Source: Oscillospiraceae bacterium (GTDB lineage Bacteria; Bacillota; Clostridia; Oscillospirales; Acutalibacteraceae). From it: DNA of 36,930 nt. Below the pieces are notes generated by a model, which had not been told where the DNA came from, made no database searches, and was given only the letters and a program-made list of their open reading frames with translations. The stretch is from assembly GCA_015065505.1 (NCBI GenBank), contig SVQE01000023.1:1-36930 (forward strand), in the 5' to 3' direction. The position numbers and the translations under genes are program-made. This document shows, piece by piece, positions 8,304 to 26,646 of this stretch (position 1 is its first letter; the number at the start of each line of letters is the position of its first letter).

Positions 8304-8568
8304 AACAAAACCTTTTTTTCAGCCGTTTAAGCCAAATCGGCGCTTTGGGCTGTTTTTAAATTACTTTGCCATAGTGTAATTTTATACCATTTGTTCACAA
8401 TTTACAATACAAAAATAGAATTCTTATATTAAATGAAGATTAAATACCGCAAATTACACAAATTTTAGTTATTTCTAATCAATTTCCCAATCAATTTTTT
8501 TACATTTTGTTGCAAATAACACTTGCAATATAATGTTAAGAGAATTATAATATTACACGTTCAAATAA

Positions 8569-9717
<1,149 letters not shown>

Positions 9718-9981: not shown

Positions 9982-10013
9982 TTTATCATATTATATATGT
10001 TTCGGTGGTTTTT

Positions 10014-10757
10014 ATGGAAAACGAAATTAAGGTTCTGCTTGAAGGTGTTAAAAACGGAAGCGTTTCGGTTGACGAAGCGTTGCTTAAAATCAAGGCGCAG
10101 CCGTTTGAGGATATAGATTTTGCAAAGATTGATTTTCACAGAAGCGCCCGTCAGGGCACGGGTGAAATTATCTATTGCGAGAGCAAAACAGCCGCTCAGA
10201 TTAATGCCATTATTGAAGCAATGCTTAAAAACAATCAACAAAGAATTCTTTTAACAAGGCTGAGCGCGGATAAGGCAAACGAGCTGAAATGCGAATTTGA
10301 AACAAAATATTATCCCGAGGCGGGAATCGGCATTATCGGCGGTTTTCCCGAGGTTAAAAGCGAGGGAAAAATTCTTGTTGCAACGGGCGGAACAAGCGAT
10401 GTTCCCGTTGCCGAGGAAGCGGCTTTAACCGCAGAATTCTTAGGTAATGATGTAATCAGGCTCTACGATGTCGGCGTTGCAGGGCTTCACAGACTGCTTT
10501 CCCACCTTGATGAAATTATGAGTGCATCGGTTATTATTGCAATAGCAGGAATGGAAGGCGCGCTTGCAAGCGTTATCGGCGGACTTGCAGACTGCCCCGT
10601 TATCGCAGTTCCGACAAGCGTTGGCTACGGCTCATCGTTTGAAGGGCTGTCGGCTCTGCTTTCAATGCTTAATTCCTGTGCAAGCGGCGTTTCGGTTGTT
10701 AATATTGATAACGGCTTCGGCGCAGGATATATATCTAATATGATAAATAAACATTAA
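10014..10757 (+). CDS. larB: LarB, nickel pincer cofactor biosynthesis (NaAD carboxylase)
   Basis: FHRSARQGTGEIIYCESKT..., LVATGGTSDVPVAEEAALTAEFLG, YDVGVAGLHRLL, GMEGALASVIGGLADCPVIAVPTSVGYG: PurE-like LarB motifs. Confidence 0.93.
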   Translation: MENEIKVLLEGVKNGSVSVDEALLKIKAQPFEDIDFAKIDFHRSARQGTGEIIYCESKTAAQINAIIEAMLKNNQQRILLTRLSADKANELKCEFETKYYPEAGIGIIGGFPEVKSEGKILVATGGTSDVPVAEEAALTAEFLGNDVIRLYDVGVAGLHRLLSHLDEIMSASVIIAIAGMEGALASVIGGLADCPVIAVPTSVGYGSSFEGLSALLSMLNSCASGVSVVNIDNGFGAGYISNMINKH

Positions 10758-10880
10758 TTACTAATGACTAATGACGAATTTCGGGGCTTGCAGCCGGCTA
10801 TTATAATCGGAGCGAAGCGACCCGACAACTTGGAGCTCGGCACTCGGAACTCGAAACTTCACTAACCACTTATTAACAAG
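10758..10880. repeat. heptad repeat module between larB and larC (first)
   Basis: TTACTAA-TGACTAA-TGACGAA; core CTTGCAGCCGGCTATTATAATCGGAGCGAAGCGACCCGA; CAACTTG-GAGCTCG-GCACTCG-GAACTCG-AAACTTC; ends with CACTAACCACTTATTAACAAG. Confidence 0.85.
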
Positions 10881-10974
10881 AGAAGAGTTCGTTTCATTCA
10901 TCCGCTATTGTAACAACGGCGTTATTGCAACGGCGCGTCGAGGGCGTCGCGCCCTACAAATTTGTAATTCAAAG

Positions 10975-11028
10975 CCTCACACCTTCCCCTTGAGGGGAAG
11001 GGGGACCGCTTGCGGTGGATGAGGTGTG
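10975..11028. repeat. three-way-junction-like palindromic repeat
   Basis: Outer CACACCT/AGGTGTG enclosing CCTTCCCC TTGA GGGGAAGG and ACCGC TT GCGGT. Confidence 0.75.
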
Positions 11029-11057
11029 TTGCCTTAACAGCACAGTATAAGATTGTT

Positions 11058-11158
11058 CGCCGAAACGGAACTATATAATAGCCGACCGCAGGTCCCGAAA
11101 TTCGTAATTCGTAATTAACTATTCACTATCCACTACCCACTAACCACTTATTAACAAG
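11058..11158. repeat. heptad repeat module upstream of larC (second)
   Basis: CCGAAACGGAACTATATAATAGCCGACCGCAGGTCCCGAAATTCGTAATTCGTAATTAACTATTCACTATCCACTACCCACTAACCACTTATTAACAAG; near-identical 5' part at 13370-13446. Confidence 0.85.
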
Positions 11159-11167
11159 GTGAATATT

Positions 11168-12361
11168 ATGAAAACATTATATTTTGAATGCTCGATGGGC
11201 GCTGCAGGCGATATGCTTTCGGCTTCCCTGCTTGAGCTGATTCCGAACAGCAATTCTTTTTTTGAAAAACTGAATAAGATATTTGCTCCCGAGATAAAAT
11301 TTGAAAGAGAAATTGTTTCAAAGCACGGCATTACGGGAACGCATCTTCATGTTGTTATAAACGGCGAAGAAGAGGGCGAAGAGCATCACCACGAGCATCA
11401 CCATGAGCATCACTCTCACCACCATCACCACCACAACACTCCGCTTGATATAAAAAACATTGTTAACAAGCTTGATATAAGCGAAAAGGTTAAAGGCGAT
11501 GTTTTATCGGTTTATGATATTATTGCCGAGGCTGAAAGCGAGGTTCACGGCGAGCCCGTTTCGCAGATTCATTTTCACGAGGTTGGCGCGCTTGATGCGG
11601 TTGCGGATATAACCGCATTCTGCCTGCTTATTGATGAAATTGGCGCTGAAAACATCTGCGTTTCACCGATTAACACAGGCAAGGGCGGCGTTAAATGCGC
11701 TCACGGCATACTTCCCGTGCCTGCGCCTGCAACGTCAAAAATAATTAAGGGCTTAACCGTTTTCAACGACGATATAACGGGCGAGCTCTGCACCCCGACG
11801 GGTGCGGCGCTTCTGAAGAAATTTGCCTGCCCTGTTTCGTCACTTCCTGCAATGAAGCTTGAAGGCACGGGCTACGGCTTCGGCAAAAAGGATTTTGAAA
11901 GACCTAACTGCGTTCGCGCCTTTCTCGGTGAAAGCGAAGAAAAGAGCGAAATAATTTACGAGCTCACCTGCAATATAGACGATATGACGGGCGAAGAAAT
12001 TGCTTTCGCGGCAGAAAAGCTGCTTGAAGGCGGCGCAAGGGATGTTTACACCCTGCCGATAGGAATGAAAAAATCGCGCCCCGGTGTTCAGATAAATGTG
12101 CTTTGCGATGACGGCAAAAAGGACGCGCTGCTTCACCTTTTATTCAAGCATACAACAACTCTCGGCGTGCGTGAAAGCGTTTTTTCAAGATTCGCGCTTG
12201 AGCGTGAATTTGAAACGGTTTCAACGCCCTACGGCGATGTTAAAATCAAGAAATCAAGCGGTTTTTCGGTTACAAGAACCAAAGCCGAATACGAGGATTT
12301 AGCAAGGCTTGCAAGCGAAAATAATGCAAGCATAAGGGAAATAAAAGACTCTATCAAATAA
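11168..12361 (+). CDS. larC: LarC, nickel insertion protein, single ORF with His-rich stretch
   Basis: MKTLYFECSMGAAGDMLSASLLELI..., FHEVGALDAVADI, TGELCTPTGAALLK, CNIDDMTGE; His run HHHEHHHEHHSHHHHHH. Confidence 0.94.
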   Translation: MKTLYFECSMGAAGDMLSASLLELIPNSNSFFEKLNKIFAPEIKFEREIVSKHGITGTHLHVVINGEEEGEEHHHEHHHEHHSHHHHHHNTPLDIKNIVNKLDISEKVKGDVLSVYDIIAEAESEVHGEPVSQIHFHEVGALDAVADITAFCLLIDEIGAENICVSPINTGKGGVKCAHGILPVPAPATSKIIKGLTVFNDDITGELCTPTGAALLKKFACPVSSLPAMKLEGTGYGFGKKDFERPNCVRAFLGESEEKSEIIYELTCNIDDMTGEEIAFAAEKLLEGGARDVYTLPIGMKKSRPGVQINVLCDDGKKDALLHLLFKHTTTLGVRESVFSRFALEREFETVSTPYGDVKIKKSSGFSVTRTKAEYEDLARLASENNASIREIKDSIK

Positions 12362-12362
12362 T

Positions 12363-13160
12363 ATGGAAGAATTAAAAAGCAAACAAAAAGAGCTTGAAAA
12401 AAGAATAGCAGAGCTCGGCAGAGTAGCCGTTGCATTTTCTTCGGGCGTTGATTCAACCTTTCTGTTAAAAACGGCGCACGATATTCTCGGCGGCAATGCC
12501 GTTGCGATAACCGCAAAGGCACCCTGCTTTATGAAGAGCGAAACCGAAGAAGCAATCGCCTTCTGCAAAAAGGAAGGCATAAAGCAGATTGTTGTTGACT
12601 TCAATCCGCTTGCGGTTGATGAATTCAAAAGCAATGTTAAAAACAGATGCTATTTTTGCAAAAAGGCGCTGTTCACCGAGGTTAAAAGAGTTGCTGCCGA
12701 GAATGATATTTCCTGCATATTTGACGGCACGAATGCTGACGACACAAACGACTTCCGCCCCGGTATGAAGGCGCTTGAAGAGCTTGGAATAATCAGTCCC
12801 CTGCTTGATGCAAAGCTCACTAAAAGTGATATAAGAGCTTTATCGCAGGAAACGGGGCTTTCAACCTTCAGCAAGCCCTCCTACGCCTGCCTTGCATCAC
12901 GCATTGCATACAACGAAGAAATAACCGAAAAAAAGCTTAAAATGGTTGAAAGTGCGGAAGAAATGCTGCATTCCCTCGGCTTTATTCAGGCAAGAGTTCG
13001 TATGCACGGCAAGCTTGCAAGAATTGAGGTTGAAAAAGATTGCTTTATGAACCTGCTTGGGCACGCTGATGAAATAAACGATTATCTCAAATCCCTCGGT
13101 TTCACCTTTGTTTCAATGGATTTAGGGGGCTTTAAAAGCGGAAGCATGAACGTATTATAA
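12363..13160 (+). CDS. larE: LarE, ATP-dependent sulfur transferase
   Basis: VAVAFSSGVDSTFLLK PP-loop; NRCYFCKKALF; SKPSYACLASRIAY; 1 nt after larC stop. Confidence 0.93.
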   Translation: MEELKSKQKELEKRIAELGRVAVAFSSGVDSTFLLKTAHDILGGNAVAITAKAPCFMKSETEEAIAFCKKEGIKQIVVDFNPLAVDEFKSNVKNRCYFCKKALFTEVKRVAAENDISCIFDGTNADDTNDFRPGMKALEELGIISPLLDAKLTKSDIRALSQETGLSTFSKPSYACLASRIAYNEEITEKKLKMVESAEEMLHSLGFIQARVRMHGKLARIEVEKDCFMNLLGHADEINDYLKSLGFTFVSMDLGGFKSGSMNVL

Positions 13161-13201
13161 GGCATAGTGCATAGTGCATAGTGCACAGAGCATAGTTATA
13201 A

Positions 13202-13230
13202 TGTATACAGGGGTCTGACCCCTGTATACA
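13202..13230. repeat. perfect 14-1-14 inverted repeat
   Basis: TGTATACAGGGGTC T GACCCCTGTATACA. Confidence 0.85.
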
Positions 13231-13232
13231 TA

Positions 13233-13330
13233 GCGATATATTGCGCGAGGCGCAATGCGATATTTTGAACTTTATTCAAAGCGATATTGTTTGCTTTGCA
13301 AACAGCGATATTTTTTGCTGTTCACAAAAA
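13233..13330. repeat. 24-nt-period GCGATAT/hairpin array
   Basis: GCGATAT at 13233, 13257, 13281 and 13305 (exact 24-nt spacing); 17-nt spacers ATTGCGC-GAG-GCGCAAT, TTTGAAC-TTT-ATTCAAA, TGTTTGC-TTT-GCAAACA. Confidence 0.9.
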
Positions 13331-13369
13331 GTTTATATAATAACGAGCCGCAAGGATTTTAATTGTAGG

Positions 13370-13446
13370 GCGCCGAAACGAATTATATAATAGCCGACCG
13401 CAGGTCCCGAAATTCGTAATTAACTACCCACTACCCACTATCCACT
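13370..13446. repeat. heptad repeat module downstream of larE
   Basis: CCGAAACGAATTATATAATAGCCGACCGCAGGTCCCGAAATTCGTAATTAACTACCCACTACCCACTATCCACT; shares its 5' part with 11058-11106. Confidence 0.85.
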
Positions 13447-17961: not shown

Positions 17962-19982
17962 TGGAAAATTACAGCGAATTTAATATTCAATATATAAAAG
18001 GTGTTGGAGAAAAAAGAGCCCGGCTTTTCAACAAGCTGGGCATTTTTTCCGTTGCGGATTTAATTCACTTCTATCCGAGAAAATATCAGGACTGGAATAA
18101 CTGCGAAACCGTTTTATCCGCGCCCGAAAACGAAAATGTTGCAATAAAGGCAACAATGATAACCCCCGTTAAAGAGCATCTTATAAGAAAGGGTATGACC
18201 CTTTATAAATGCAATTTTTCAGACGGACAAACGGTTATTCATGTAACCATTTTCAACAACAAATATCTTGCAAAGGCGCTCAGAACCTTTGATGAATACA
18301 TTCTTTTCGGCAAGGTTGAAAAAAGCTTTACAAGCGCTTCGATGAGTTCACCGCAAATAGAATGCGCCGAAACAGCTCAGGGCATTCACCCCATATACAG
18401 CGCAACCGAAAATCTCAATTCAAAGGCTATTGCAAAAACAGTTAAAACAGCCCTTGAAAAATTTGAATATTTTGAAGATACCCTTGATGGCGAAATCAGG
18501 GATAAATATAATCTTTGCTCGCTTGATTTCGCACTCAGGCAGATTCATTTTCCGAGTGATGAAAAAAACATTGAAATCGCGCGCAGAAGGCTGATTTTTG
18601 AAGAGCTTTTAACCCTGCAGCTCGGTCTGTTAAAGCTAAAAGATAAAAAAGACACTAAGAATAATTTTCCACTTGAAAAAGACTTCACCGAGGAATTTTT
18701 ATCCCTTTTGCCCTTCACCTTAACAAACGCTCAGAGCAGTGCAATTAAGGACTGCATAAACGATATGCAAAGCAGCAAAACAATGAACAGGCTTATTCAG
18801 GGTGATGTTGGCTCGGGCAAAACGGCTGTTGCGGCTGCTGCTATGTTCAGCGCAATTAAAAACGGCTATCAGGCTGCTATGATGGCGCCCACCGAAATTC
18901 TTGCAAGCCAGCATTTTGAATCGCTTTCAAGGCTGTTTGAAAACACAGATATAAATATTGCCCTGCTCACAGGCTCAACCAAGGCAAAGGAAAAGCGCGA
19001 AATAAAAGAAGCGCTTATGAGCGGTGAAATTGACTTAATCGTCGGCACTCACGCGCTTATTCAGAACGATGTTGAATTTAAGGAGCTTGCCCTTGTTATA
19101 ACCGACGAGCAGCACCGTTTCGGCGTTGAGCAAAGGGCTTCCCTTGCAATGAAAAGCGCCTCACCCCACCTCATGGTTATGAGCGCAACCCCGATTCCGA
19201 GAACGCTCGGGCTTATTATCTACGGCGACCTTGATATAAGCATTTTAAACGAGCTTCCTGCAGGCAGAAAGAAAATAAGAACGGATGTTGTTGACACATC
19301 CTATCATCAGAGAATATATAATTTCATCAAAAAAACCGTTGATGAAGGGCATCAGGCATATATCGTCTGCCCCCTTGTTGAAGAGAGCGAAAGCGATTTA
19401 ATCTCGGCAACGGAATACGCAAATGAGCTTAGCGTTAAATATTTTCAGGGATATAACCTTGCGCTGCTTCACGGAAAAATGAAGGCAAAGGATAAGGACA
19501 GAGTTATGCAGTCCTTTGCAAATAAGGAAACGGATGTGCTTGTTTCAACAACGGTTGTTGAGGTTGGCGTTGATGTTCCAAACGCAACCGTTATGCTTAT
19601 TGAAAACGCCGAGCGCTTCGGGCTTTCACAGCTTCATCAGCTCAGAGGAAGAGTTGGCAGAGGCAGCGAGCAGAGCTACTGCATTCTTGTTTCCGACAGC
19701 AAGGGCGAAGCCTCAAAGGAGCGCCTTGCAATTATGAAGGAAACCAACGACGGCTTTAAGATTGCCGATTATGACTTGAAAACAAGGGGTCCCGGCGACT
19801 TCTTCGGAAAGCGTCAGCACGGACTGCCCAACCTCGTTATTGCAGATATGCTTGAGGATATGGAAACGCTGATGGAATGTCAGGAATGTGCAAAGCAGAT
19901 GATTAAAGAGGATGAAAACCTCGATAATTATCCCCTGCTCTGCGAGCAAATCAGCGATATGTTCCGCAAGGCGGAATACTAA
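17961..19982 (+). CDS. recG: ATP-dependent DNA helicase RecG
   Basis: QGDVGSGKTAVAAAAM, DEQHRFGVEQR, MSATPIPRTLGLIIYGDLD, LHQLRGRVGRG. Confidence 0.97.
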   Translation: MENYSEFNIQYIKGVGEKRARLFNKLGIFSVADLIHFYPRKYQDWNNCETVLSAPENENVAIKATMITPVKEHLIRKGMTLYKCNFSDGQTVIHVTIFNNKYLAKALRTFDEYILFGKVEKSFTSASMSSPQIECAETAQGIHPIYSATENLNSKAIAKTVKTALEKFEYFEDTLDGEIRDKYNLCSLDFALRQIHFPSDEKNIEIARRRLIFEELLTLQLGLLKLKDKKDTKNNFPLEKDFTEEFLSLLPFTLTNAQSSAIKDCINDMQSSKTMNRLIQGDVGSGKTAVAAAAMFSAIKNGYQAAMMAPTEILASQHFESLSRLFENTDINIALLTGSTKAKEKREIKEALMSGEIDLIVGTHALIQNDVEFKELALVITDEQHRFGVEQRASLAMKSASPHLMVMSATPIPRTLGLIIYGDLDISILNELPAGRKKIRTDVVDTSYHQRIYNFIKKTVDEGHQAYIVCPLVEESESDLISATEYANELSVKYFQGYNLALLHGKMKAKDKDRVMQSFANKETDVLVSTTVVEVGVDVPNATVMLIENAERFGLSQLHQLRGRVGRGSEQSYCILVSDSKGEASKERLAIMKETNDGFKIADYDLKTRGPGDFFGKRQHGLPNLVIADMLEDMETLMECQECAKQMIKEDENLDNYPLLCEQISDMFRKAEY

Positions 19983-20182
19983 AAATAATGATTTATCGCT
20001 GAGGCGATAAATCATTATTTGAGTTGCTGGTTGCGAGTGCCAAGTTCCGAGTTCAGGTTACTCGCTGCGCTCAAACAATAATAAAATCGGAGCGAAGCGA
20101 CCCGACAACTCGGAGCTCGGGGCTCGGTACTTGAAACTTTAATTGTGATTTGCGAGCCCAAAGGGCTCGTCAAATCACAATT
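19983..20182. repeat. composite element, copy 2: hairpin B - heptads - hairpin A
   Basis: Hairpin B AAATAATGATTTATCGC TGAG GCGATAAATCATTATTT; heptads; core ATCGGAGCGAAGCGACCCGA; hairpin A 20141-20182. Reverse complement of copy 3. Confidence 0.93.
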
Positions 20183-20210
20183 AAAAAACACGGCTTTTGC
20201 CGTGTTTTTT
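20183..20210. terminator. bidirectional terminator between recG and PrsW-like gene
   Basis: AAAAAACACGGC TTTT GCCGTGTTTTTT. Confidence 0.85.
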
Positions 20211-26001: not shown

Positions 26002-26449
26002 GAATGAAAAAATGAAAAAAGACGGAGACACCGTTAAGCTTCTTCGCGAATGCGACGCAGGAATAAAAATGGGAATATCCTCAATCGACGATGTTATTTA
26101 TGATGTTAAGGATAAAAGCCTGCGCGATATGCTTGATGAATGCAAACGCCGCCACGAGGTTCTCAGCATTGAAGTTGGCACTCTGCTTGACGACCATTTT
26201 GAAAGCGGAAAAAATCCGAACCCGATGGCAAAAAGTATGAGCTTCATAAAAACAAATGTTAAAATGATGGCTTCCCCGAAGGATTCAACGGTTGCAGACC
26301 TTATGACCGACGGCTGCAATATGGGCGTTAAATCACTCGGCAGATACCTTAATCAGTATAAAAACGCTGACGAAAAATCGCGTGCAATCGCAAAAAACCT
26401 GATTAATCTTGAAAGCAGCCTTGCTGTTGATTTGAGGAACTACTTGTGA
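26000..26449 (+). CDS. DUF2383-like (PA2169/ferritin-like) protein
   Basis: MNEKMKKDGDTVKLLRECDAGIKMGISSIDDVIYDVKDKSLRDMLDECKRRHEVL...; family call by pattern. Confidence 0.65.
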   Translation: MNEKMKKDGDTVKLLRECDAGIKMGISSIDDVIYDVKDKSLRDMLDECKRRHEVLSIEVGTLLDDHFESGKNPNPMAKSMSFIKTNVKMMASPKDSTVADLMTDGCNMGVKSLGRYLNQYKNADEKSRAIAKNLINLESSLAVDLRNYL

Positions 26450-26638
26450 TTTGTCGAGCCCTTTGGGCTCGCAAATCACAATTTAAGTTTCAAGTACCGA
26501 GCCCCGAGCTCCGAGTTGTCGGGTCGCTTCGCTCCGATTTTATTATTGTTTGAGCGCAGCGAGTAACCTTAACTCGGAACTTGGCACTCGCAACTCGCAA
26601 CTCAAATAATGATTTATCGCCTCAGCGATAAATCATAT
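26444..26638. repeat. composite element, copy 3: hairpin A - heptads - hairpin B
   Basis: Near-perfect reverse complement of 19983-20182; contains the TGA stop (26447-26449) of the upstream CDS. Confidence 0.93.
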
Positions 26639-26646
26639 TTTTTTTA

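Follow-up and report, generated by a model that had tools for sequence, protein, structure and literature searches.

A GCGATAT box-and-hairpin ladder in an Oscillospiraceae genome is a dispersed repeat with sister arrays beside PF05635 genes

We found that the ladder of GCGATAT boxes and hairpins at positions 13233-13330 of a 36,930-nt stretch of Oscillospiraceae DNA (referred to below as the window) is a dispersed repeat with sister arrays across Clostridia, many of them from the gut and rumen; and that related arrays occupy the stretch directly 5′ of PF05635 genes, or flank these genes. The general rule of the format is a 7-nt box (near RYGAWWT, and nearly constant within an array) that alternates with 7-20 nt palindromes of differing sequence. 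On balance, the ladder is probably a solo, non-autonomous array that descends from PF05635 elements and acts at the DNA level, and it shares the format of the Rfam family Gut-1 (RF01706) with another box; the derivation from PF05635 elements is well supported, but indirectly. In a literature search, we found no account of such arrays of hairpins in these bacteria.

All parts of the ladder are on the forward strand. Its four boxes are exact GCGATAT matches (13233-13239, 13257-13263, 13281-13287, and 13305-13311) that start at steps of 24 nt, and the three spacers between them are 7-3-7 hairpins of unrelated sequence: ATTGCGC-GAG-GCGCAAT (13240-13256; common to six copies in the genome), TTTGAAC-TTT-ATTCAAA (13264-13280; one mismatch, at the innermost pair), and TGTTTGC-TTT-GCAAACA (13288-13304), each identified by its fold and by the genome copies. 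Box 4 is succeeded by an imperfect 19-nt terminal hairpin (TTTTTGC..CAAAAA, 13312-13330), after which there is no fifth box. The original prediction had described this layout correctly, including the mismatch, and the 14-1-14 inverted repeat that it placed on the left is exact: TGTATACAGGGGTC-T-GACCCCTGTATACA at 13202-13230. This perfect 29-nt palindrome (TGTATACAGGGGTCTGACCCCTGTATACA) does not belong to the ladder unit: it is a dispersed repeat of its own, with 27 sites in the genome, most of which lack a ladder and which are often near contig ends.

The immediate surroundings of the ladder contain further repeats. A degenerate heptamer tandem repeat, (GCATAGT)n, can be read at 13162-13195 (forward strand), and another, ACTACCC/ACTATCC, lies at 13423-13446 (forward strand) and is of the type that ends a PF05635 element of the same genome (locus L389, G000:C95). 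The latter repeat ends a 67-nt module common to 11068-11134 and 13380-13446, with about 35 relatives in the genome. Elsewhere in the window, a 203-nt inverted repeat (19981-20183 and 26441-26643, 96% identity) is composed of hairpins and heptamer repeats, and pieces related to it are found at 8568-8682, 10745-10859, and 20079-20139. Judging from the sequence, the ladder comes after a putative larE, the last of three consecutive look-alikes of nickel-pincer cofactor synthesis genes (larB, a His-rich larC, and larE; 10005-13160). No ORF of at least 80 aa is present in 13161-13446, so that no S23/IVP gene lies within the ladder element, and no PF05635 remnant was found adjoining the ladder.

Searching the 2.3 Mb host genome for GCGATAT-N17-GCGATAT returned 21 occurrences (the reversed control returned none). 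Six near-identical copies carry the hairpins in identical order between unrelated flanks: the ladder itself (contig C8), one each in C9, C22, and C47, and two in C92. Their similarity starts at box 1 (preceded by ATA in several copies) and stops after GCAAAAAGTTAA; we detected no target-site duplication around the six solo copies, and no common flank of at least 6 nt. Arrays in C6, C76, and C91 of the same genome use the GCGATAT box with other hairpins. The copies resemble MITEs in being short, non-coding, dispersed, and apparently derived from gene-bearing elements, but differ from them in that the solo copies have neither a clear terminal inverted repeat nor a target duplication, and we do not classify them as such. 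They are also distinct from CRISPR arrays, since the constant part of the ladder is 7 nt, as compared to about 23-47 nt for CRISPR repeats, whose spacers are foreign and non-repetitive, and since the variable parts of the ladder are palindromic and common among copies.

The box-motif search of this and related genomes, proposed in the original prediction, did return other instances with palindromic spacers. For example, two congeners (Eubacterium sp. MAGs RGIG3418 and RGIG4979) contain GCGATAT arrays with 9-19 nt palindromes. The predicted constancy of length holds for the copy family of the ladder but not elsewhere, where spacers of 7-20 nt remain palindromic; fixed 24-nt spacing was thus rejected as a general rule, which makes a protein array phased at 24 bp, one of the functions originally suggested, unlikely. 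Over all fetched arrays, about 0.7-0.9 of the pairs in 9-18 nt spacers are formed (0.3 in shuffles), and 148 of the 183 good units have the same box on either side. With palindromic spacers in hundreds of arrays, a constant box with a variable palindrome is a real and recurrent format, beyond chance. When we searched de novo for 7-mers of any sequence that recur around two perfect palindromes unrelated to each other, we found only a tight box family comprising GCGATAT, GTGAAAT, GTGATAT, TCGATAT, ATGATAT, GTGAATT, ATGAATT, and close variants (roughly RYGAWWT), a vocabulary that may be wider because the searched loci were chosen partly by GATAT boxes. The arrays are intergenic, many form inverted pairs around a centre, and dozens of copies may be present in one genome; triple-box matches reach 73 per genome in the bacterial family and are also seen in several further families within the class. 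Among GTDB genomes, triple GCGATAT matches have palindromic spacers almost only in Clostridia, whereas those in other phyla are nearly always non-palindromic. One GCGATAT array (1579-1700 of L087, G018:C166) abuts what appears by eye to be a candidate FMN riboswitch.

We then considered the genes next to the arrays. No dominant family was found among 126 array-flanking proteins; the commonest was PF05635 (n = 4), the family of the 23S rRNA intervening-sequence protein (IVP/S23). The array-linked PF05635 proteins carry the NCBIfam name four helix bundle protein, and their nearest solved structure is 2rld. At the level of genomes, 57 of 59 array-rich genomes have PF05635, as compared to 35 of 150 array-poor ones (odds ratio 94, p 3e-24, uncorrected for phylogeny, in a comparison that drew on 300 genomes of the family and in which the array counts include some coding matches); three array-rich genomes (at least eight triple-box matches) lack PF05635. 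Inspection of 40 PF05635 loci revealed a boxed-hairpin array in 10 and plain heptamer tandem repeats on both sides in 11, and about half of the PF05635 loci have no boxed array. Within the same genus, arrays lie beside the gene in 15 of 20 chosen PF05635 loci, which are not independent because several are orthologous. The two flanks of PF05635 genes are also related to each other: upstream and reverse-complemented downstream flanks have at least three common 9-mers in 34 of 63 loci (4.7 expected), and direct sharing is high as well.

The box of the ladder itself is found in such positions. In a related genome, intact PF05635 genes have GCGATAT arrays on their flanks (L153 and L154), as does an internally deleted PF05635 gene in the same genus (L079), so the ladder falls within the class of end arrays that adjoin PF05635 genes. 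The host genome provides a further example with the box ATGAATT, in C19 (L392), where the order is array, PF05635 gene, array, an 11-codon remnant of a PF05635 gene, and array.

The same genomic comparison bears on whether the arrays could be REP/BIME-like elements that an HUH (Y1) transposase has spread, the box being a recognition tag comparable to those of GTAG- and CGTC-tagged REPs. PMC3733652 describes REPs with end tags, and the arrays resemble REPs in having a short constant tag adjoining a palindrome, high copy number, intergenic dispersal, and clusters in two orientations. However, stems within one genome are unrelated, and vary freely even within an array, which is unlike REP families; the box, at 7 nt, has another sequence; and we saw no requirement for a Y1 transposase. 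A PF01797 (Y1) match is absent from 18 of the 59 array-rich genomes (some of them incomplete), and the association of this control family with array-richness gives an odds ratio of 2.8, against 94 for PF05635. We therefore rejected the Y1 transposase as the partner of the arrays, its association being weak, and regard the REP/BIME explanation as very unlikely.

Evidence for mobility comes from PF05635 elements that end in plain heptamers. Some PF05635 genes have inverted heptamer repeats at their borders, and three heptamer-ended elements at tRNA-Leu genes (L376, L385, and L387) lie between direct duplications of tRNA-Leu sequence of 45, 39, and 23 bp, respectively (null maximum 15); in L387, the duplicated tRNA-Leu stretch abuts heptamer arrays on both sides. 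For the heptamer-ended type, these duplications are a mark of insertion. In the boxed type, the direct repeats that we found are the arrays themselves (L153, L154, and L392). The plain heptamer at L415 is GTGAAAT, identical to the Gut-1 box, which suggests that box and heptamer are one unit, with and without hairpins. In the Coxiella 23S intervening sequence, which has long been suspected to be mobile, heptamer repeats also precede the S23 gene (PMC4990558), and both there and here a PF05635 gene is carried in a small element with complementary ends. The elements described here differ in being located outside 23S rRNA in the loci examined and in that many have box-and-hairpin arrays; the ladder copy further differs in having no gene.

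The layout of the ladder, four 7-nt boxes parted by three variable hairpins, is also that of Gut-1, which was described in its source paper as a candidate noncoding RNA found only in the human gut (Weinberg et al., 2010; PMC2864571). Gut-1 occurs in the bacterial family of the ladder; its consensus consists of GUGAAAU boxes around variable hairpins, and thus differs from the ladder in its box. The covariance model (gathering score 50 bits) matches two sister arrays, L142 and L162, at 67.6 and 51.8 bits, scores above the cut-off in 43 of the 120 genomes of the family that were scanned, often many times, and has one match in the host genome (68.7 bits; G000:C11:34511-34583). There is no match in the window, the ladder included, so the ladder is by the Rfam test a sibling with the same layout and not a member. 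Whereas Rfam lists Gut-1 as an sRNA gene, in these genomes it has the look of a DNA repeat that is present in many copies and linked to PF05635 genes.

That Rfam typing, together with the stable RNA fold of the ladder region (-53.2 kcal/mol for 13198-13345, z -7.6; none of 200 shuffles was as good), would fit arrays that are structured RNAs, either sRNAs or mRNA elements, in which a protein binds the single-stranded boxes between hairpins. Several observations argue against this, in addition to the dozens of copies per genome and the failure of the Gut-1 model to find the ladder. Array orientation relative to neighbouring genes is unbiased (32 vs 27 downstream, 29 vs 24 upstream); and, in 9 of 10 leaders, the stretch that separates the PF05635 gene from the nearest box contains an extended -10-like motif, which would put the array upstream of the transcript. 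Triloops predominate in the arrays, and tetraloops show no preference for GNRA (48 of 96). We consider a structured RNA unlikely, and the strand-specific small-RNA ladder that had been among the proposed functions is disfavoured by the lack of gene-relative strand bias and by the position of arrays upstream of the promoter-like -10.

The loop sequences of the class favour a DNA-level reading. On the box strand, about 55% of loops read T-N-C or T-N-N-C and about 1% read G..A, with C-G closure in 91% of triloops; the opposite strand therefore reads C-GNA-G or C-GNNA-G, and GNA/GNNA with C-G closure is an extraordinarily stable DNA mini-hairpin motif (PMC4686876). The ladder's own hairpin loops are not GNA/GNNA, and the two strands have equal computed DNA folding energies; the DNA reading is therefore drawn from the class and not from the ladder copy. 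Inverted loops, which hairpin flipping should leave behind, were no more frequent than chance predicts (6 reverse-complement loop pairs vs 4.1 expected). Covariation in orthologous leaders, for which there are few sequences, amounts to one clear double change along with several broken pairs, and we gave it no weight. Overall, the original interpretation is partly supported: among the options it listed, a DNA-level hairpin substrate is the best fit.

The strand asymmetry of the loops is likewise relevant to the idea that the arrays are passive repeats, in which palindromes arise within a tandem heptamer and are then maintained through replication slippage or palindrome correction, without a dedicated mobiliser or a function. 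Such an origin would agree with the hairpin-free heptamer tandems that share their unit with boxed arrays (GTGAAAT, at L415), and with solo copies that lack a duplication. It is less easily reconciled with this strong asymmetry, with the narrow box vocabulary, or with the consistent placement of arrays beside PF05635 genes, and we judge it quite unlikely.

Returning to the derivation of the ladder from PF05635 elements, we infer that PF05635 genes with their end arrays would act as small mobile elements, and that lone arrays such as the ladder may have arisen from them by deletion or as solo copies and have spread in trans or through recombination. The hairpins would be structural DNA marks that are read jointly with the box, most probably in single-stranded form while the DNA is being replicated or transposed, with stem shape and the strand-specific loop weighing more than stem sequence; recognition by hairpin shape and box would leave the stem sequences free to diverge. 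Such a scheme would need no function for the neighbouring genes of the ladder. More tentatively, boxed-hairpin arrays in general, Gut-1 included, might form the DNA ends of mobile elements of a class that is widespread but undescribed; PF05635 four-helix-bundle proteins would drive these elements, and recognition would be via single-stranded hairpin shape and the 7-nt box.

If this is true, the orphan Rfam family Gut-1 would no longer be read as an RNA gene but as a mobile-element end, and the many unassigned four-helix-bundle (PF05635) genes would gain a role to test. The long-standing suggestion of mobility for 23S rRNA intervening sequences would likewise gain a testable basis, in the form of defined ends and direct duplications of tRNA-Leu; and a large share of the puzzling intergenic repeats in rumen and gut Clostridia would be explained.
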